A DNA stretch of 64,000 nucleotides, from the NCBI RefSeq assembly GCF_024138125.1, contig NZ_CP099993.1, positions 1,860,001 to 1,924,000 on the forward strand. The letters run 5' to 3'. A model generated the notes under the pieces. It was not told the DNA's origin and ran no database searches. It saw nothing but the letters and a program-made list of their open reading frames with translations. Shown in pieces: positions 5,839 through 15,172 of the stretch. The position numbers and the translations under genes are program-made. How positions within the stretch are numbered: the stretch's first letter is position 1; each line of letters begins with the position of its first letter. Origin of the DNA: Halorussus salilacus (GTDB lineage Archaea > Halobacteriota > Halobacteria > Halobacteriales > Haladaptataceae).

Positions 5839-5915
5839 CTCGGCGTCTTTTCGGACCTCCCACCGCCGCCACAAACGAAACCCTTTACAGGACCTCGCGC
5901 GCTATTGAGAGATGC

Positions 5916-5988
5916 GGGACCGTGGGGTAGCTTGGTATCCTTTCGGCCTTGGGTGCCGATAACCTCGGTTCGAATCCGAGCGGTCCCA
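5916..5988 (+). tRNA. tRNA-Pro (anticodon TGG)
   Basis: The acceptor stem GGGACCG (5916-5922) pairs with CGGTCCC (5981-5987), with discriminator A at 5988. The anticodon stem TCGGC/GCCGA encloses the loop CTTGGGT, giving anticodon TGG at 5950-5952. The T arm is CTCGG-TTCGAAT-CCGAG. All arms fold. No CCA is encoded. The last 15 bases plus one flanking base are copied at 9300-9314, marking this gene as an integration target. Confidence 0.95.
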
Positions 5989-5989
5989 T
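5975..5989 (+). repeat. direct repeat, left copy (attL-like, tRNA-Pro 3' end)
   Basis: tccgagcggtcccat, formed by the 3' half of the T stem and the acceptor stem of tRNA-Pro. It is repeated identically at 9300-9314. Archaeal integrative elements commonly use the 3' part of tRNA genes as attachment sites, leaving such a copy at the far end. Confidence 0.75.
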
Positions 5990-6048
5990 CTCCGGCGACA
6001 AAACGGTGAGCGACGCGTAGCGGCGCGAACTACTACTGTCGCCGAAAG

Positions 6049-6080
6049 TGGCCCTACCGAGGATTCGAACCCTGCAAGTC
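6049..6080 (-). other. tRNA 3'-end-like fragment
   Basis: On the minus strand the sequence reads GCAGGGTTCGAATCCTCGG followed by TAGGGCCA, which looks like a T arm and acceptor 3' strand. No matching 5' acceptor strand (GGCCCTA) occurs within tRNA length, and the T stem has one mismatch. It is thus not a working tRNA; it may be an old attachment-site copy from a different tRNA. The remaining part of 5990-6290 shows no gene. Confidence 0.35.
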
Positions 6081-6293
6081 GCACGCCTGGAACGGCCGGA
6101 CCGAGGCGCGAAGTGCTGTCCGGAGTGCGATTCGCGGTGCCCGTCCAGTACGAACCTTCGACGTGGTGTGTCGGGTCGCCACGGGACCGAGAGGACACCA
6201 ATTACTATGTTCCGGTTCGGTCCTCCTGGATTCGAGCGCCGGTAATGCAAGCTTCGACGTTGGGGTGTGCGCTGGCCGCTTGGTCTCCTTCGC

Positions 6294-9188
6294 TCACTCT
6301 TCGGACTCCTCGCCGCCGACTAACTGACGCTTTAACAAGTACACGGCACCAGTCAGTGCGCCAATCGCTGTACCGAACCCGAAGCCAGGTTGGTCTGCCT
6401 CCGATGCCGTCGACGTTCCGCGAGCCGTGCTTTCCGTCCCCGACTGGTGGGTAGTCGTCGTTTCCGAGGTATCGATACGTTCGGACTCATTCGTCTCGCC
6501 CGTGGTTGACGTGAGAGTAGAGGTCGATGTCGAAGTCTCGGTCGAACTAGTCGTCTCCGTGGTGGGTACCTCGCTCCCATTCTCCGGAACGGTCGCCGAC
6601 GCGGTTGATAACGCCTGTCTCGCGTACGGGTCCGTACCGTCGACGAGCGCGAGTTCGATTTCGTCACCGGGACGGAACGGCACACTTGGCTCGTCGTAAT
6701 TGACCCGGACGCTTGTCCGCTGGTCTGCGCCGGGAGAAGGCTCTACCAGTAGTGTTCCCCACGAGGAACCTGCCTCGGTGTAGAGTCGGATAGCTGGCGA
6801 CCGCTCAGGCGAATACCCTTCTTCGAGCCCGTAATCGATAGTGAGGGAATTCGTGTAGGGTGCTGGCGGTTTCGCGATTTCGACGACGGTTTCTTCACCC
6901 GCCGTCGTGACCGTCGCGACATCCACTGGGTCGTCCACCGACTCGTGAACCAATGCGAGTTCCACGTCGGTGTCGGACGGCAATCCATCATTGAGGTCGG
7001 CCACCTCGTCCAAAACGAACGTCCGGCGGTCGTACGCCCCCGGTTCGACGCTTGTAAGCGTCGCAGTACGCTCGCCGCCGATGCGTAGTTCCACCTGCCC
7101 CTCACCGGTGAGGGTTCCGGGAAGCAGGAACTCGGCCGTGAGGTCAGAGGCTCCCGCGATAGGAGCTTCTACGTACTGAATTCCCGCCACTACGGTACAT
7201 TTGACCACGATAGCATCGTCGATGTGCCCCCAATCTTCCGGAAACGCACGTAGCGTGGCGGTCTCGCCGAGTTGGAGCGTCCCCGACGGAATCTCGTAGG
7301 CGTCCGTCCCGGACGATCCGGGATCGACGAAGTCCAACCCAATACCCCACTGACCTCCACCGTTTTCGGGAAAGAGACGCGTTCGAACCGCCTTACCGAA
7401 CGACTCGGCGACACTGGTCTCCACCTGAATAGATGTCTCGTCGACAGTCGGGGGCCCGGCGAAGCTGATGTCGACTTCGTCGTGTTGCATGGTCTCGACA
7501 TCACAGGAGCTCATCTCCGTCTCCTCTCCGGTAGCGTCCCCGCCGACCGTGACCGAATCCGTCGCGACCGCACGGGACGGGGTGATATTGCCGGGAGGGA
7601 TCAGCCAGACTTCCACCTCGTCGCCAGACGCGAACGGAATTCCGGTTTCGCTGGACGACAGTTCGAACGTTTCCGTTCGACTCTCACCAGGCCTGACGCT
7701 AGTCAATTGAAGGTTACGCTCCCAGTGCGGCCCTTCCCCGTCGGGGACGAGATACAGATCCGCCCTGTCGGCGGATTCGGAAGCTCCGTACGTAATTTTG
7801 ACCGTGTCATCGTCGGGCCCCACGGTCCGTTCGAACTTGGTCGCGTAACGTACCGTCGCTGACCGAGACAGCACCACGTCCCCCTCTGGCGGTGACACCC
7901 GAAGGGTGACTTCGTCGCCGAGTGACAGTGGGCCTTTGAGTTCGATTCGGACACGATTCGAGACACCGGCGACCACCGTCGTTGGCTCTACGGAAATCTC
8001 TTCGCTTCCGCGATAGACCCGAACCCGCAACCGGTCCTCTGCTGTACCTTCCACGTAACAATCGACGGTGAGCCGTTCCACGCCCGCAATCAGCTCCTCC
8101 CGAAACGAGACTCCCTCGATTTCGTTACGGCTTCGATGGTGTGCGATCAGGTCTGAAACGATTTTCGGCGAGTACGAGTGATCCGTATCGTCGTACACCT
8201 CGAATCGGGTGTCGGCATCGACACGGTCGTGAACCGCTTCGCTGAACGTCATTCTATCCTCTTGCATGTCCTCTCCGTACACCTCCTGGGCCTTCTCGGC
8301 CTGCTCCTCGCTCCAGACGTCCCGGTACGGTAGCGTGTCGTCGTTCGGACTCGTCTCCGTTTCGCCCATGTAACAAAACAGCGCTACGTCCCGCCAGGCG
8401 TTGAGGTCGAACGGCGAGCCGGTGAGTTCTTCCAAATCTGCGATGCCGATCTGATAATTGAGAGTGTGGTCCTTCGCTTCCCGTACCGGGAGCGTGGCCA
8501 TCCCGTTCACCGCCCCGGCAGTCACTGACGTGAGACGCTCCGGGTGCATGACCGCGAAATTATCGACGAAGTTGCCGGATGCGGAGAACCCGTTCATCAT
8601 GAAATCGGACGGAAGCTCGAGGCCGTCCTCGGCAATCCGCTCTCGGGCGTCGTCGACCATCGCGATGAGTTGTCGGTCGATTCGCTCGAATCGCCCGGAG
8701 TCGATATGCATCGTCTCGGTATCCAGCGACTGGACGAACTTCTCGTAGAATCCGTCGGAGACGGGGTTCGCAAATACGGGTACGACGAGCGCAACTCGAA
8801 GTTCGTCACAAAGACGCCGTGCTACCCCGTCTGTTACGGTGCTCTCGGCCGCGTCCAAATCCTCTTGGAACTCGTCGGAGCCAGCCCCCGAGTTCACTGG
8901 TTCGACGAGTAGCGGCTTCTCACGCGCCTCTGGAGGCACGTACAGATAGTACGGGAAATTGAACCCTGCGTCCGGATCCTTCTCGATGAGCGTCGGCCCG
9001 CGGCGAGACTCCTGTGACTGCTGATTCGCCGACCCTGTTCGGGCGCTCGCGTCACTCAGGAGCCCCATCCCGACAGCGACAGAGAGCGATTGCAACGCCG
9101 CCCGGCGCGAAAATCCCGTGTCGCCGTGACACCCCTTTTTTATCGGTCTCCGGTGCCCGTCCGTGGTGTCCTTCGGAGATTTAGTCAA
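6294..9188 (-). CDS. Tat-exported alpha/beta-hydrolase-like surface protein with PGF-CTERM-like anchor
   Basis: A 964-residue exported protein. A twin-arginine signal (FSRRAALQSL, about residues 26-35, then a hydrophobic stretch) begins it. The next 330 residues resemble an esterase-type alpha/beta hydrolase with a nucleophile elbow GFSASG and a late histidine in DDTDHSYSP. About 500 residues of repeated beta-rich modules follow, each with phrases like RPGDEIELALVDG or SGDEVEVWL. The tail is Ser/Thr-rich, a probable O-glycosylated stalk, and ends in QPGFGFGTAIGALTGAVYLL-KR, matching the tripartite archaeosortase signal (PGF, hydrophobic helix, basic end). Translation likely starts at TTG (9188), since a GGAGG precedes it by about 7 bases and a stop codon lies upstream. 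It is the only gene of the tRNA-Pro islet. The substrate is unknown. Confidence 0.75.
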   Translation of the reverse strand: MTKSPKDTTDGHRRPIKKGCHGDTGFSRRAALQSLSVAVGMGLLSDASARTGSANQQSQESRRGPTLIEKDPDAGFNFPYYLYVPPEAREKPLLVEPVNSGAGSDEFQEDLDAAESTVTDGVARRLCDELRVALVVPVFANPVSDGFYEKFVQSLDTETMHIDSGRFERIDRQLIAMVDDARERIAEDGLELPSDFMMNGFSASGNFVDNFAVMHPERLTSVTAGAVNGMATLPVREAKDHTLNYQIGIADLEELTGSPFDLNAWRDVALFCYMGETETSPNDDTLPYRDVWSEEQAEKAQEVYGEDMQEDRMTFSEAVHDRVDADTRFEVYDDTDHSYSPKIVSDLIAHHRSRNEIEGVSFREELIAGVERLTVDCYVEGTAEDRLRVRVYRGSEEISVEPTTVVAGVSNRVRIELKGPLSLGDEVTLRVSPPEGDVVLSRSATVRYATKFERTVGPDDDTVKITYGASESADRADLYLVPDGEGPHWERNLQLTSVRPGESRTETFELSSSETGIPFASGDEVEVWLIPPGNITPSRAVATDSVTVGGDATGEETEMSSCDVETMQHDEVDISFAGPPTVDETSIQVETSVAESFGKAVRTRLFPENGGGQWGIGLDFVDPGSSGTDAYEIPSGTLQLGETATLRAFPEDWGHIDDAIVVKCTVVAGIQYVEAPIAGASDLTAEFLLPGTLTGEGQVELRIGGERTATLTSVEPGAYDRRTFVLDEVADLNDGLPSDTDVELALVHESVDDPVDVATVTTAGEETVVEIAKPPAPYTNSLTIDYGLEEGYSPERSPAIRLYTEAGSSWGTLLVEPSPGADQRTSVRVNYDEPSVPFRPGDEIELALVDGTDPYARQALSTASATVPENGSEVPTTETTSSTETSTSTSTLTSTTGETNESERIDTSETTTTHQSGTESTARGTSTASEADQPGFGFGTAIGALTGAVYLLKRQLVGGEESEE

Positions 9189-9299
9189 TTGTGGCCCTCC
9201 ATGGTAGTTGTTCCCGATAAATCAAGCTGTCATCTTAAATTATTTGTACTGGAGAGGGTTCATCGAGAACATATAATATAGCAGAATACTATCACCATG

Positions 9300-9314
9300 T
9301 CCGAGCGGTCCCAT
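9300..9314 (+). repeat. direct repeat, right copy (attR-like)
   Basis: tccgagcggtcccat, identical to tRNA-Pro bases 5975-5989. The similarity ends on both sides of the 15 bases, as expected for a recombination-generated copy and not for a second tRNA. Confidence 0.75.
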
Positions 9315-9432
9315 TCTGCTGACCCGAGTCGCGAGGGAGGCGTCGCGTCTATCGCTGTCCGGTCCCGAGCAGAGGAGCCGGAGAAATAATTATGTTCTAT
9401 GGTGGCAAACTGTTGCCCGGTACGGAGCTCAC

Positions 9433-10095
9433 ATGAGCGACTCGACACCGACGCGCTCGGCGACCGCCGACGAGGACCGCTCGATGTCCCTCGACGAGAT
9501 CCGCGGGGTGTACGCCGACCAGGCCGACTGGGTCGCCCGGATGGCCCCGCTCGACCGGCTGTTCATGGGGCGGTACCGGCGTCGGCTCTTCGGGCGGGCG
9601 GAGGGCCGCGTGCTCGACGTCGCCTGCGGAACCGGGACGAACGTCCCCCACCTCCCCGACTCGGTGGCGTACGTCGGCGTCGACATCAGCCCCGAGATGC
9701 TGGCGAAGGCCGCAGAGCGGTTCGACGACCTCGAACTCGGCGAGGACCTGCTGGAGATGGACGCCCAGGAACTCGACTTCCCGGACGACAGCTTCGACAC
9801 CGTCATCTCGGCGCTCTCGACCTGCACGTTCCCGGACCCGGTCGCGGCCCTGCGGGAGATGAGCCGGGTCTGCAGGCCCGACGGACGGATTCTCCTGCTC
9901 GAACACGGACGCAGTGACGTGGGTGCCGTCGCGCGGTTCCAGGACTGGCGCGCCGACGCCCACTTCGAGAAGCACGGGTGTCGGTGGAACCAGGAACCGC
10001 TGGCGGTCGTCTCGCGCGCCGACCTGCCGATTCGGGAGGCCACCTCTCGATTCCTCGGGATTCTCACCGCAGTCGAAGCGCGACCCAAACGGTAG
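9433..10095 (+). CDS. class I SAM-dependent methyltransferase
   Basis: A 220-residue protein with a Rossmann-type methyltransferase core. Motif I VLDVACGTGTNVPHL lies near residues 59-73, followed by GVDISPEML (motif II acidic residue), MDAQELDFPDDSFDTVIS (motifs II-III) and REMSRVCRPDGRILLLEHG (post-III). It resembles the UbiE/COQ5 group, which methylates quinone precursors or small lipophilic substrates, yet such resemblance does not fix the substrate. An A+T-rich aaataatta at 9384-9392 may be its promoter. It lies just outside the islet. Confidence 0.85.
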   Translation: MSDSTPTRSATADEDRSMSLDEIRGVYADQADWVARMAPLDRLFMGRYRRRLFGRAEGRVLDVACGTGTNVPHLPDSVAYVGVDISPEMLAKAAERFDDLELGEDLLEMDAQELDFPDDSFDTVISALSTCTFPDPVAALREMSRVCRPDGRILLLEHGRSDVGAVARFQDWRADAHFEKHGCRWNQEPLAVVSRADLPIREATSRFLGILTAVEARPKR

Positions 10096-10198
10096 TTTGC
10101 TCGAACGAACCCTCCGCCATCGCGCACTCGAACTTCCACCGTCTCGATTGGGCAGTTGCTCACCCCGGGTCGGCCCGGTCTCTCTCGTCAGTTCCGTC

Positions 10199-11290
10199 TC
10201 ACTCCCCGCCGTCCCACTCCTGCACGATGGGTTCCTCGTCGCGAACCGCCATGTAGCAGAGCGGGTCGTTCTCGTACACCGCCACACCCTCGGGTCGCCC
10301 GGTGACGTAGCCGTCGTGATCGGACTCGACGGTCGCCTTCGGGTCGCCGTGGGGTGTGACGATGTCGGCGACGGGGTCGCCAGCCTCGACCACGTCGCCC
10401 GGTTCGACTCGGTGGCGCACGATGCCCGCCGTCTCGGCGTGGGGGTGCTGGGCGCGTCTCACCGGGTACTCGACGGGCGACTCGTGGCCGGGGTCGGCGG
10501 CCGCGATTTCGTCGGCCACCGAGTCGAGCATCCCGAGTTCGACCATCACCCGGTGACACCCCGCGACCCCCGCGGCCACCAGGTCGTCGTCGACGACGCT
10601 GTGGCCCCCGATTTCGGGCGTGAACGCGGGGATACCCGAGGTGTCGAGCGCCGCGCCGGTCGTCGAGCGCTGGAGCCCCCGGTCGGTGTACTCCCCGCCG
10701 GGGTACTGATTCACGATAGGGAGGCCGAACGCCTCCATCAGGCGGCCCTGGAGCTCGGCGAGCTCCTCGGCCTCCTCGCGGGTCCGGCGGTTACCGTAGA
10801 ACACCCGGTGGCGGATGTCGAACGGGACCGAGTCGACGACCGAGGTGTGGAGGTTGACGAGAGCGTCGGCGCTGTCGACGAACGCCTCGTAGATGCGTCG
10901 GTCGATGAGTTCCTGGACCTTGGGCGGGCGAGCGCTCTCGCTCGTGGGGTCGGGGAAGTAGCGGTTCGGGTCGTCGTCGTGGTAGTAGGAGGTCCGCTCG
11001 TTGCGGCGCAGGCCCGCGGGGTTGAGGTTCGGGATGCAGACCACGGTGCCCGCGAGGTCGTCGGGGAGGTCCTCGCGCATCGCGTCCTGAGCGCCCGCGA
11101 GGCCGGTCACCTCGTCGCCGTGGAGCGTGCCCGTGATCCAGAGTTCGGGCCCGTCCTCGTCGCCGAGGGCGACGAGGACGGGCAGGCGCTCGGCCCCGCC
11201 GGTCGGGAGGTCCGTGACTTCGAGGTAGCCGGTCGACAGCTCGCCCGCGTCGGCATCGGCGGTGCCCAGTTGCATGCTTCGGTCGTCCAT
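10199..11290 (-). CDS. succinylglutamate desuccinylase/aspartoacylase family metallohydrolase
   Basis: A 363-residue M14-like zinc hydrolase. The zinc ligands are apparent as TGTLHGDEVTG (H-x-x-E, about residues 54-64) and a later LVNLHTS. NLNPAGLRRNER fits the substrate-binding arginine region. The C-terminal 90 residues form a beta-rich biotinyl-like domain (RHRVEPGDVVEAGDPVADIV, DGYVTGRPEGVAVYENDPL) common in this family. It would deacylate an N-acyl amino acid or related amide; specificity is not determinable. It faces the methyltransferase gene convergently. A second possible start (MQLGT) is five codons in. Confidence 0.85.
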   Translation of the reverse strand: MDDRSMQLGTADADAGELSTGYLEVTDLPTGGAERLPVLVALGDEDGPELWITGTLHGDEVTGLAGAQDAMREDLPDDLAGTVVCIPNLNPAGLRRNERTSYYHDDDPNRYFPDPTSESARPPKVQELIDRRIYEAFVDSADALVNLHTSVVDSVPFDIRHRVFYGNRRTREEAEELAELQGRLMEAFGLPIVNQYPGGEYTDRGLQRSTTGAALDTSGIPAFTPEIGGHSVVDDDLVAAGVAGCHRVMVELGMLDSVADEIAAADPGHESPVEYPVRRAQHPHAETAGIVRHRVEPGDVVEAGDPVADIVTPHGDPKATVESDHDGYVTGRPEGVAVYENDPLCYMAVRDEEPIVQEWDGGE

Positions 11291-11306
11291 CCCCGGCTAC
11301 AAAAGC

Positions 11307-11388
11307 TCGGAGCATCCGGCAGTTCGCTCGTTCGGAGCATCCGGCAGGGACAGCCTCGCGACCGGGCGGGCAAGCCCGCCCGGTCGCG
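11307..11388. repeat. direct repeat pair and GC hairpin before mcm
   Basis: tcggagcatccggcag occurs at 11307-11322 and again at 11332-11347. A perfect 15-bp inverted repeat follows, cgcgaccgggcgggc (11357-11371) against 11374-11388 with an AA centre. The two lie in the divergent region between the hydrolase start and mcm. Confidence 0.6.
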
Positions 11389-11488
11389 GGGCGGTTTCAC
11401 TTTCGGCGCGCTTTCGGCGTCTCTCCGGCTTCACTTCCGGGATGCTTTACGAACCTTCTTATCGGAGGAGGAACTACGAAATGCCTGA

Positions 11489-14400
11489 ATGGCTCGCGCG
11501 GAGAACACGGAGCTAGTCGACGATTTCGAGCAGTTCTACCGGCGGTACTACAGCGACGAAATCGGGGACCTCGCCGCGAAGTACCCGGGGGAGAAGCGGT
11601 CGCTGTTCGTCGACTGGAACGACCTCTACCGGTACGACGCCGACCTCGCCGACGACTACCTCTCGAAGCCCGAACAGCTACAGGAGTACGCCGAGGAGGC
11701 CCTGCGCCTCTACGACCTCCCGGTGGACGTGAGCCTCGGACAGGCCCACGTTCGCATCCAGAACCTCCCGGAGACGACCGACATCCGCGCGATTCGCGCC
11801 CGCCACGTCAACACGCTGGTCAGCGTGCAGGGCATCGTCCGGAAGGCGACCGACGTCCGGCCGAAGATTCGGGAGGCCGCCTTCGAGTGCCAGCGATGCG
11901 GCACCCTGACCTACATCCCACAGAGCGGCGGCGACTTCCAGGAACCCCACGAGTGTCAGGGGTGTGAGCGACAGGGCCCCTTCCAGATAAACTTCGACCA
12001 GTCGGAGTTCATCGACTCCCAGAAGCTCCGCGTCCAGGAGAGCCCCGAGGGACTCCGGGGCGGCGAGACCCCCCAGAGCATCGACGTCAACATCGAGGAC
12101 GACATCACGGGCGAGGTCACGCCCGGCGACCACGTCACCGTCACGGGCGTCCTCCACCTCGAACAGCAGGGCAGCGGGCAGGACAAGTCGGCGGTCTTCG
12201 ACGTGTACATGAACGGCGTCTCGGTGACCATCGAGGACGAGGAGTTCGAGGACATGGACATCACCGACGAGGACAAAAAGGAGATCATCGAACTCTCGAA
12301 CGAGAGCGACATCTACGAGCAGATGGTCGGTTCGATGGCTCCCGCCATCTACGGCTACGACGAGGAGAAGCTCGCGATGATTCTTCAGCTGTTCTCTGGT
12401 GTGACCAAGCATCTTCCGGACGAATCTCGTATTCGTGGCGATTTGCACATGCTCCTTATAGGGGACCCCGGAACTGGTAAGTGTATTAAAGGCGACACGA
12501 AAGTCACGCTCGCAGATGGGGCCGAGAAGCCGATACGTGAAATCGTCGAATCCCATCTTACCGACCCGAAACCGATAGACGATGGCGTGTACCAAGAGGT
12601 CGATATTCCGCTTCCGTCGATGAGTGCCGACGGGACACTCGTTCAGAAACGCGCGACGAAGGTCTGGAAGCGTGAAGCCCCCGACGAGATGTACCGGATT
12701 CGGACGAGGAGCGGAACGGAAATCGAGGTCACTCCCTCTCACCCGCTTTTCGTCCAAAGTCAAGGTGAGTTTAGCCCCGTCCAGGCTGAGGAAATTGGCG
12801 AAGGTGATTTCATCGCGACTCCTCGGTCACTCCCGACAGAAGGAGACAATAGTCTCGAAGTCGACTATAGGTCGTCACAATCGTACAATGCAGTCGAACT
12901 TGATTTACCGAACAAATGGACACCGAAGTTAGCTCGATTACTCGGGTACATCATTGCAGAGGGGTATGTAGAATCCCGGTCCGACAACACAGGCTACGTC
13001 ACTGTTACAAACAAGGATCGAGAGATTCTTGACGATGTCGCCGGCGCTTTTGACGAACTCGGTTTGAATTACACTGAGCGAGCGTCACGCCCGGACAAAT
13101 CTGCCGAAGAAATCACTTGTTCGTCTGGCGAGTTTGTTAGCTTCCTCAGGAATCTTGACCCTGCAATCACTCAAGGTTCCGCTGAACAGCGAGTTCCGGA
13201 TACTCTAATGAATGCCTCTACGGAGGTGAAATGTGAGTTCCTTCGAGCATATATCGATGCAGAAGGTCACGTTTCGGTTGGCCAGAGAGAAGTCAGTGTT
13301 GCTTCAGTGAGTGAGGAACTGCTCAAACAGGTCCGAAGTCTTCTACTTTCAGTCGGTATTACATCACAACTCTCCGAACGCCAAAAAGGCAGTTATCGAC
13401 TTCGAATTAGTGGTAAACAGTTCCAACAGTACCTCCAAGATATCGGCTTCGTCACAGCACGAAAATCTGCCAGTGCCAGAGCAGTCGATAACGGAACGAA
13501 GAACACGAATTGTGACGTAATTCCCGCTCTCTCCGCCGACCTTCGGCGTATCAGAGAGTCACTTGCACTTTCGCAATCCGAGTGTGGACTTGCACGATCC
13601 ACCTACCAACACTATGAACGAGGCGACCGAAACCCGAGCCGAGAGAGTCTGCAAACCGTCGTAGAAACCTTTAGAACTCGACTTGATCGAATCTACAAAC
13701 TCCGTCAAAAAGTCGAAAACGGTGATTGGGAAGCCATCGAAACGGCACGACAAGAGTTGAATCTCTCCCAACAGGAGCTTGCAGATGGTATTGGCGTTTG
13801 CCAGCGTTCGGTCAGCTTGTACGAACTAGGGGAAGTCGTTCCAGACGGTGGCCGAGTAACCGATGCGAGGAGCGTCGTTCTCGACCGTATCGACGAAGCT
13901 CTCCGTGTTGAAGGCGATATAGAGGCGCTTTGGGCACTCGTAGATAGCGACATCACTTGGGACCGCATCAGGTCCATCGAATCTATCGAACCCGACTACG
14001 ACTGGGTGTACGACCTCGAAGTTGCTGGAACCCACAACTACCTGACGAACAACGTCGTCTCGCACAACTCCCAGATGATTTCGTACGTCCAGAACATCGC
14101 GCCGCGCTCGGTGTACACCTCCGGGAAAGGTAGTAGCTCCGCGGGTTTGACCGCCGCAGCGGTCCGCGACGACTTCGGCGACGGCCAGCAGTGGACCCTC
14201 GAAGCCGGGGCGCTCGTGCTCGCCGACAAGGGCATCGCGGCGGTCGACGAACTCGACAAGATGGCCCCCGACGACCGCTCTGCGATGCACGAGGGGCTCG
14301 AACAGCAGAAGATCTCGGTCTCGAAGGCGGGCATCAACGCGACGCTCAAGTCACGATGCTCGTTGCTCGGGGCGGCCAACCCCAAGTACGGTCGGTTCGA

Positions 14401-15172
14401 CCAGTACGAACCCATCGGCGAGCAGATAGACCTCGAACCCGCGCTCATCTCGCGGTTCGACCTCATCTTCACGGTCACCGACCAGCCCGACGAGGAGCAC
14501 GACCGGCGGCTGGCCGAACACATCCTCCAGACCAACTACGCGGGTCAGCTCAACACCCAGCGGACCGAGATGAGCGCGCCCAACATCTCCGAGGAGGAGG
14601 TCCGGAGCCAGACCGAGGAGGTCGCGCCCGCCATCGACGCCGACCTGTTGCGCAAGTACATCGCCTACGCCAAGCGCAACTGCTTCCCGACGATGACCGA
14701 CGAGGCGATGGCGACCATCGAGGACTTCTACGTCGACCTCCGGTCGAAGGGCGTCGACGAGGACGCCCCGGTGCCGGTCACCGCCCGCCAGCTGGAGGCG
14801 CTGGTCAGGCTCGCGGAGGCCAGCGCCCGGGTGCGACTCTCCGACGAGGTCGAAGTCGGGGACGCCGAGCGCGCGGTGGATATCACCCGGTCGTGTCTCC
14901 AGGACATCGGCGTCGACCCCGAGACGGGCCAGTTCGACGCCGACGTGGTCGAGACCGGGACCTCGAAGACCCAGCGCGACCGCATCAAGAACATCAAACA
15001 GCTCATCGCCGACATCGAGGACGAGTACGACGAGGGCGCGCCAATCGACGTCGTCCTCGACCGCGCCGAGGACATCGGGATGGACCACTCGAAGGCCGAA
15101 CACGAGATAGACAAGCTGAAACAGAAGGGCGAGGTGTACGAGCCCTCGACCGACCACCTCCGGACGACCTGA
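11489..15172 (+). CDS. mcm: replicative minichromosome maintenance helicase MCM, intein-containing precursor
   Basis: A 1227-residue precursor that gives a 698-residue MCM after removal of residues 332-860. The N-terminal domain carries a zinc finger (CQRCG...CQGCERQ, about residues 134-158) and OB fold. The AAA+ core has Walker A GDPGTGK, split from its following Ser by the intein, then Walker B DELDKM, the sensor-1 region LLGAANPKYG and an arginine finger in LISRFDLIF. A C-terminal winged helix ends the protein. MCM forms the hexameric 3'-5' helicase at archaeal replication forks. Protein splicing is needed for function because the intein separates the two halves of the ATP site. The next gene starts one base after the stop. 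Confidence 0.97.
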   Translation: MARAENTELVDDFEQFYRRYYSDEIGDLAAKYPGEKRSLFVDWNDLYRYDADLADDYLSKPEQLQEYAEEALRLYDLPVDVSLGQAHVRIQNLPETTDIRAIRARHVNTLVSVQGIVRKATDVRPKIREAAFECQRCGTLTYIPQSGGDFQEPHECQGCERQGPFQINFDQSEFIDSQKLRVQESPEGLRGGETPQSIDVNIEDDITGEVTPGDHVTVTGVLHLEQQGSGQDKSAVFDVYMNGVSVTIEDEEFEDMDITDEDKKEIIELSNESDIYEQMVGSMAPAIYGYDEEKLAMILQLFSGVTKHLPDESRIRGDLHMLLIGDPGTGKCIKGDTKVTLADGAEKPIREIVESHLTDPKPIDDGVYQEVDIPLPSMSADGTLVQKRATKVWKREAPDEMYRIRTRSGTEIEVTPSHPLFVQSQGEFSPVQAEEIGEGDFIATPRSLPTEGDNSLEVDYRSSQSYNAVELDLPNKWTPKLARLLGYIIAEGYVESRSDNTGYVTVTNKDREILDDVAGAFDELGLNYTERASRPDKSAEEITCSSGEFVSFLRNLDPAITQGSAEQRVPDTLMNASTEVKCEFLRAYIDAEGHVSVGQREVSVASVSEELLKQVRSLLLSVGITSQLSERQKGSYRLRISGKQFQQYLQDIGFVTARKSASARAVDNGTKNTNCDVIPALSADLRRIRESLALSQSECGLARSTYQHYERGDRNPSRESLQTVVETFRTRLDRIYKLRQKVENGDWEAIETARQELNLSQQELADGIGVCQRSVSLYELGEVVPDGGRVTDARSVVLDRIDEALRVEGDIEALWALVDSDITWDRIRSIESIEPDYDWVYDLEVAGTHNYLTNNVVSHNSQMISYVQNIAPRSVYTSGKGSSSAGLTAAAVRDDFGDGQQWTLEAGALVLADKGIAAVDELDKMAPDDRSAMHEGLEQQKISVSKAGINATLKSRCSLLGAANPKYGRFDQYEPIGEQIDLEPALISRFDLIFTVTDQPDEEHDRRLAEHILQTNYAGQLNTQRTEMSAPNISEEEVRSQTEEVAPAIDADLLRKYIAYAKRNCFPTMTDEAMATIEDFYVDLRSKGVDEDAPVPVTARQLEALVRLAEASARVRLSDEVEVGDAERAVDITRSCLQDIGVDPETGQFDADVVETGTSKTQRDRIKNIKQLIADIEDEYDEGAPIDVVLDRAEDIGMDHSKAEHEIDKLKQKGEVYEPSTDHLRTT
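12482..14068 (+). other. intein in MCM with LAGLIDADG homing endonuclease and two HTH motifs
   Basis: 529 residues begin with Cys (CIKGDTKVTLADG, block A) and end with VVSHN before Ser (block G), with block B at EIEVTPSHPLFV and block F at YDWVYDLEVAGTHNYL. These splice-site residues are all intact. Two dodecapeptide motifs, LLGYIIAEG and LRAYIDAEG, give a LAGLIDADG endonuclease. Between the endonuclease and block F lie two XRE-like helix-turn-helix segments (LALSQSECGLARSTYQHYER and LNLSQQELADGIGVCQRSVS). Codons in the intein use A/T at wobble positions far more than MCM, showing a foreign source. Insertion within Walker A is a known intein site in archaeal MCM. Confidence 0.93.

Follow-up and report, generated by a model that had tools for sequence, protein, structure and literature searches.

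How did a single gene for a putative exported hydrolase come to stand between two copies of the end of a tRNA gene in a haloarchaeon? The question is raised by a locus of Halorussus salilacus which lies within a stretch of 64,000 nt from contig NZ_CP099993.1 (the window; the genome of 3.6 Mb is labelled G000). Here the 15-mer TCCGAGCGGTCCCAT from the 3' end of tRNA-Pro(TGG) recurs 3.3 kb downstream and encloses one long open reading frame (ORF). In our reading an integrative element once recombined with the terminal 14-15 bp of tRNA-Pro(TGG), and the islet is what remains of it without the integrase; we give this reading a probability of roughly 55%. The features of the islet, in window coordinates, are:

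5916 to 5988, plus strand: intact tRNA-Pro(TGG) gene (ARAGORN; Rfam, 57.3 bits)
5975 to 5989, plus strand: left copy of the 15-mer, tRNA 3' end and one further base, candidate attL (exact match)
5989 to 6054, plus strand: trailer of the tRNA, containing a short inverted repeat, like the trailers of the congeners G001, G003, G016 and G017 (flanks side by side, judged by eye)
6055 to 6146, plus strand: decayed tRNA-tail hairpin, in which a previously reported "tRNA-like fragment" lies (model R1, 25.5 bits)
6122 to 6147, plus strand: weak candidate for a direct copy (D2) of the tRNA end in decayed form (local alignment)
6294 to 9188, minus strand: cargo gene, putative exported hydrolase of 964 residues with a PGF-CTERM-like tail (ORF, homologue search, codon use)
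9300 to 9314, plus strand: right copy of the 15-mer, candidate attR (exact match)
9315 to 9349, plus strand: sequence resembling a trailer, perhaps the native flank of the tRNA after displacement (alignment to the tRNA-Pro trailer of G016)

The 15-mer was found exactly twice in the whole genome, at these two places, and the reversed 15-mer, which served as a control, not at all. A first-pass annotation of the window had already reported the repeat, and its concern that such a 15-mer might be common genome-wide can be set aside. It had described the repeat as tRNA 3' end plus one flanking base, which is right in kind; the tRNA contributes 14 bases, not 15. The segment was also correctly seen as A+T-richer (60.1% G+C in 5990-9299 against 67.0% in the whole window) and as containing one gene, a single long ORF of 964 codons with a TTG start.

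We surveyed the 45 tRNA genes of the genome for an exact copy of their 13-base tail up to 15 kb downstream. Eleven of them have such a copy at less than 800 bp, and between 0.8 and 15 kb only tRNA-Pro (3.3 kb) and tRNA-Phe (10.0 kb) have one. Behind tRNA-Phe lies an element of about 10 kb (L325, G000:C1:1284407-1299680), and its Phage_integrase gene overlaps the 10-kb tail copy. That tRNA-Pro has one of only two far copies, and that the other coincides with an integrase gene, supports the view of the islet as a remnant. If the 15-bp match had arisen by chance and the hydrolase gene had arrived by an unrelated route, this would resemble the congeners G014, G004, G006 and G007, which hold cargo and no tail copy (up to two mismatches, in the tract examined). 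An exact 15-mer within 3.3 kb is however very unlikely to be fortuitous, and the reverse-strand control of the survey gave 0 matches over the same distance for all 45 tRNAs; we consider a coincidence highly improbable.

An integrase-bearing element uses the same tRNA end in another species of the genus. In G013 the 14 bp CCGGGCGGTCCCAT of tRNA-Pro(TGG) are repeated 17.0 kb downstream, and the gene for a tyrosine recombinase of 341 aa (L358:6672-7694) ends just before the distant copy. The same 14 bp are found again at 17.3 kb downstream of the tRNA in G008. The right copy in the window, 15 bp which start in the T stem, has the length and position that an attR should have and resembles the copies of G008 and G013. 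It is because the element of G013 uses the same tRNA end that a remnant is the favoured reading of the islet. Both have in common the tRNA, the 14-15 bp repeat of its 3' end and the intact state of the tRNA; the element of G013 (L100/L358) has about 17 kb and a recombinase beside its right repeat, whereas the islet has 3.3 kb, one gene and no recombinase.

The general class to which the islet can be likened are the tRNA-targeting archaeal elements with tyrosine recombinases, e.g. the haloarchaeal SNJ2, which has a 14-nt att at a tRNA 3' end (PMC8371274). The islet exhibits a direct repeat of the tRNA end at both edges and an intact tRNA; a recombinase gene was not found between the repeats, where the one long ORF is located. 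Two integrases from other tRNA sites were searched against 5901-11500 without a convincing match (best E = 0.014), in agreement with the first-pass annotation, which had seen no integrase in the segment. A comparable case is the 6.7-kb tRNA-Thr region of Haloquadratum walsbyi, which is integrase-free, contains a partial copy of tRNA-Thr, and was read by its authors as the remnant of a prophage or an integrative plasmid (PMC3119063). Like the islet it combines a partial tRNA copy downstream with the lack of an integrase; unlike the islet its copy is imperfect (57 nt), it contains many pseudogenes, and it is present in both strains.

The 3' flanks of tRNA-Pro(TGG) were compared in the 17 congeners of the search set and in three outgroups. 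In the congeners a CitMHS-like transporter is encoded upstream of the tRNA, and MCM follows downstream in 14 of the 17, between 124 bp and 26 kb away; in the other three (G001, G012 and G017) about 29 kb were covered without reaching it. Near-empty sites are seen in four congeners, all different species, with tRNA-MCM gaps of 124 bp (G010), 149 bp (G015), 218 bp (G002) and 334 bp (G009). ORFs in the congener tracts were picked by composition, and the 56 that were scanned include ABC transporters, TGT-like proteins, proline dehydrogenase, hydantoinase and provirus-like genes. Gap length and cargo both differ, and therefore the tract between tRNA-Pro(TGG) and MCM is an insertion hotspot with near-empty sites; empty sites and different cargo are what the first-pass annotation had suggested looking for in relatives.

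The cargo gene looks foreign by its composition and its patchy distribution. Its G+C content at third codon positions (GC3) is 0.70 and its mean log2 relative synonymous codon usage is -0.07, while GC3 exceeds 0.85 in most of the long genes picked in the window. Segment and gene are thus atypical of the window, though low values are likewise seen in several of the picked frames and in the intein-bearing MCM. With a 300-aa stretch of the N-terminal domain as query, 8 of 59 genomes, the own genome included, yielded homologues; a separate search by pattern gave no hit in the genome contigs. The same gene at the same place in all relatives, which would have contradicted the idea of a mobile islet, is not what was observed: the spread is patchy, and the contents of the site differ between congeners.

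The label "hydrolase" is used because a GFSASGNF motif is kept in most of the eight aligned homologues, in which a conserved His is also present. The cargo protein has no Pfam hydrolase match; Abhydrolase_1 is reached only with E = 0.018 in three of the eight family members, of which the window protein is not one, and a single-sequence structure prediction of the hydrolase domain (predicted local distance difference test, pLDDT, 33) was not used. A Tat-like SRRAAL stretch was recognised by eye, and the PGF-CTERM tail is visible but scores below the curated cut-offs (15.4 of 24.5 bits, and 13.3 of 18.8 in a second scan).

Beside a remnant, the first-pass annotation had suggested a cassette mobilised in trans. 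An active cassette or satellite that depends on an integrase encoded elsewhere would agree with a cargo gene that is intact and flanked by matching tRNA ends, and tyrosine-recombinase elements exist both in the own genome, at tRNA-Phe, and at tRNA-Pro(TGG) in congeners. We found no direct evidence for such movement and no second copy of the cassette: the hydrolase domain has one match in the own genome, and its homologues elsewhere are 40-50% identical. Mobilisation in trans therefore seems unlikely to us.

Members of the same enzyme family are also found at another proline tRNA. In G001 and G008 a homologue of the hydrolase lies about 2.1 kb behind tRNA-Pro(CGG), on an island of at least 37 kb which starts at the tRNA 3' end in both species (L121/L363/L364 in G008, L122/L365/L366 in G001). 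Identity between the two genomes is 70-76% immediately before this tRNA, rises to 99.9% in the 5 kb that start at the tRNA, and stays at 96-97% for most of the 20 kb after that, where gaps and an insertion of 2 kb in G001 interrupt the alignment. In G008 the right edge of the island carries, at +37,445, an exact 14-bp copy of the tail, behind which the sequence resembles the native G003 trailer; no such copy was found in the part of G001 that was examined. The island encodes a resolvase-like protein, DUF1156 and DUF499 proteins which resemble parts of the Hma defence system, and a McrBC-like protein, and no tyrosine recombinase is among the nine island ORFs scanned. Islet and island share the tRNA-Pro 3' end as starting point and the homologous hydrolase. 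They differ in that the island is far larger, bears defence-like genes and a resolvase, and uses the other isoacceptor. It is the best evidence that the hydrolase family may travel on tRNA-Pro islands. The T stem of tRNA-Pro(CGG) itself displays a paired change, with GCGATTCGAATTCGC in G008 and G003 and GCAGTTCGAATCTGC in G001 and G000.

The "tRNA-like fragment" which the first-pass annotation had counted as part of the islet is, by exact pattern match, GGATTCGAACCCTGCAAGTCGCA at 6061-6083, an inverted T-arm. With a tolerance of up to three mismatches, 34 of 40 genomes contain the pattern, and a tRNA lies upstream on the same strand, mostly at less than 200 bp, at 38 of the 40 pattern loci examined. 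In such a unit the tRNA and its trailer are followed by the T-arm in inverted orientation, then by a conserved core, and last by the 3' end of the same tRNA as a direct copy. The direct copies start at GGTTCRAATCC and include the T-loop. In 49 of 60 units all of the 12 bases that follow the T-loop agree with the own tRNA, while in comparisons of units with different tRNAs 10 of 12 were reached in 2.1% of the pairs.

From 28 units we built a covariance model, R1. It matches 24 times in the own genome, and two of the matches are reverse-strand echoes, which leaves 22 units. Relative to 44 tRNAs recognised by Rfam and tRNA-Pro(CGG), 21 of the 22 share the strand of a tRNA gene and lie on its 3' side, 16 such genes being involved; the last one follows a 3' end that looks like a tRNA's but belongs to no recognised tRNA. 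Five tandem units with a period of about 155 bp, some of which score identically, follow tRNA-Arg(GCG) (L252, G000:C1:1417739-1418448). Matches were obtained in 182 of the 194 haloarchaeal genomes sampled, with 1 to 22 or more per genome. Among the 64 best-scoring loci (30 from relatives, 20 from the own genome, 14 from other genera; some share one tandem array) ARAGORN detects a tRNA upstream in 62, most at less than 250 bp. The other two units, both on the minus strand (L224 1480-1720 and L259 1480-1900), follow degenerate 3' ends that by eye are tRNA-Leu-like and tRNA-Glu-like. In the set examined the hairpin is found behind 26 isoacceptors.

When 97 distinct units are aligned to R1, 96.6% of the cells pair, and changes on both sides occur in 17 of 21 pairs compared to 6.5 in shuffles, in an alignment which is itself fitted to the structure. 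A MAFFT alignment of the 28 units agrees (10 of 21 pairs, 3.9 in shuffles). In both alignments the predicted helices covary. In the inner helices G.U pairs do not outnumber A.C (5 versus 9 among 961 cells) although double changes are many, a pattern that looks DNA-like; the excess of G.U in the outer helix (48 versus 17 A.C) runs the other way.

According to its match to R1, 6055-6146 is a decayed copy of this recurrent hairpin and not integration debris. As hairpins of the same type stand behind many tRNAs without cargo, its assignment to the islet is not supported; an origin as debris of a second integrated tRNA was considered and rejected, since it recurs behind tRNAs of many kinds. At tRNA-Pro(TGG) units scored by R1 are present in G016, G017, G003 and G001, weak in G020 and G011, and missing in most other congeners, and therefore the presence of the unit varies between species. 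Local alignment of 6096-6160 to the expected end of a unit (p = 0.017, base shuffling) gave the weak trace of D2 at 6122-6147.

The abundance of units offers a different explanation for the distant repeat. The copy at 9300 could be the D2 of a hairpin or tandem unit, in which case homologous or illegitimate recombination, without any site-specific integrase, could have placed the hydrolase gene inside the unit or between two of them. The short-range tail copies at 11 of 45 tRNAs are accompanied by hairpin units, units occur in tandem as behind tRNA-Arg(GCG), a decayed one is present in the window, and the sequence after 9314 resembles a tRNA-Pro trailer. However, the copy at 9300 has 15 bp and lacks the T-loop, whereas unit copies start at GGTTCRAATCC, and the loss of this loop would have to be assumed; its absence is as expected of an att site and not of a unit. 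In addition, tRNA-Pro(TGG) would stand alone in the own genome in having a far tail copy and no integrase. We regard entry into a unit as the less likely of the two competing readings.

If the islet is the remnant of an integrative element, a tyrosine recombinase would have inserted a larger element at the end of tRNA-Pro(TGG), by which 5975-5989 would have become attL and 9300-9314 attR, and the native trailer would have been displaced beyond 9314. A later deletion would have removed most of the element, the integrase included, and kept the surface hydrolase. The hairpin at 6055-6146 was probably already at the tRNA before the insertion; the weak D2 trace and the weak trailer match after 9314 lean towards an attR with the unit already in place. 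With attR at 9300, the empty site would be expected to read ...CGGTCCCAT joined to TCTGCTGACCC...

Several observations weigh against this scenario. No trace of an integrase was found in the islet, and the cargo of the elements in G013 and G008 shares no DNA with it. The closest empty relatives are other species, and the exact empty junction was not seen. The match of 9315-9349 to the G016 trailer is weak (p = 0.008, the best of five trailers, the other four not significant). Moreover, the hairpin unit stands between tRNA and cargo, so that the order attL-element-attR implies either that the unit belongs to the element or that the element integrated at a later tRNA-end copy, the attL of which has decayed. 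Nevertheless, in view of the repeat, the hotspot, the foreign-looking gene and the integrase-bearing element of a congener, a remnant that kept its enzyme, as already proposed in the first-pass annotation, is the best reading. The islet would then illustrate how a tRNA site keeps a useful surface gene after the loss of the mobile machinery, and the island of G001 and G008 how a tRNA-Pro island carries the same enzyme family.

The hairpin matters more than the islet, as a many-copy and phylogenetically wide anatomical counterpart of the RtT RNA of E. coli (RF00391). Behind tyrT/tyrV the latter consists of a trailer, an inverted copy of the tRNA end GGGGAAGGAT, a core, and a direct copy ATCCTTCCCC, in tandem. 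The haloarchaeal hairpin likewise forms tandem units behind a tRNA, with the tRNA end in inverted and in direct copy, the unit in the window being decayed; in contrast to RtT it follows 26 isoacceptors, has a conserved core of its own, and no Rfam match connects the two. The term "RtT-like" is thus meant as a statement on anatomy only. The hairpin gave no match to Rfam 15, and the RtT model none in the haloarchaeal units or the window. No description of it was found in the literature searched, from which most subscription journals were outside coverage, and the hairpin is apparently unnamed.

Other identities were considered. The strict palindrome and variable loop recall the attC sites of integrons, the core of which is GTTRRRY; judged on the arm alone, GGTTCRAATCC misfits this core. 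A viral or plasmid origin was rejected as well, three viral contigs fitting the short pattern and none scoring with R1, and collections of phages and plasmids likewise gave short matches only.

The odds appear evenly balanced that a large share of haloarchaeal tRNAs is followed by this RtT-like hairpin of their own 3' end, which would multiply in tandem, vary between species and track its own tRNA, and which may act as RNA, in tRNA 3' processing, or as DNA, as a site of recombination or a decoy for integrases that target tRNAs. If this is true, islets such as the one at tRNA-Pro(TGG) sit in an arena of spare tRNA ends. In any case, copies of tRNA 3' ends near haloarchaeal tRNAs are not readable as integration scars without further evidence.

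Two further genes of the window lie inside the variable tract between tRNA and MCM:

9433 to 10095, plus strand: methyltransferase gene (ORF call, protein-family match)
10199 to 11290, minus strand: AstE/AspA-like gene (protein-family match)

Among the tracts searched, only G008 has a close AstE relative adjoining MCM. MCM itself (11489-15172) contains intein-like insertions, at which the G+C content dips to about 48-55%, and alignments indicate that their number varies between congeners. Finally, a strong match (75.8 bits) to the L4-Archaeoglobi ribosomal protein leader RF03135 was obtained in a Halorussus genome, at L209 2294-2393 on the plus strand.

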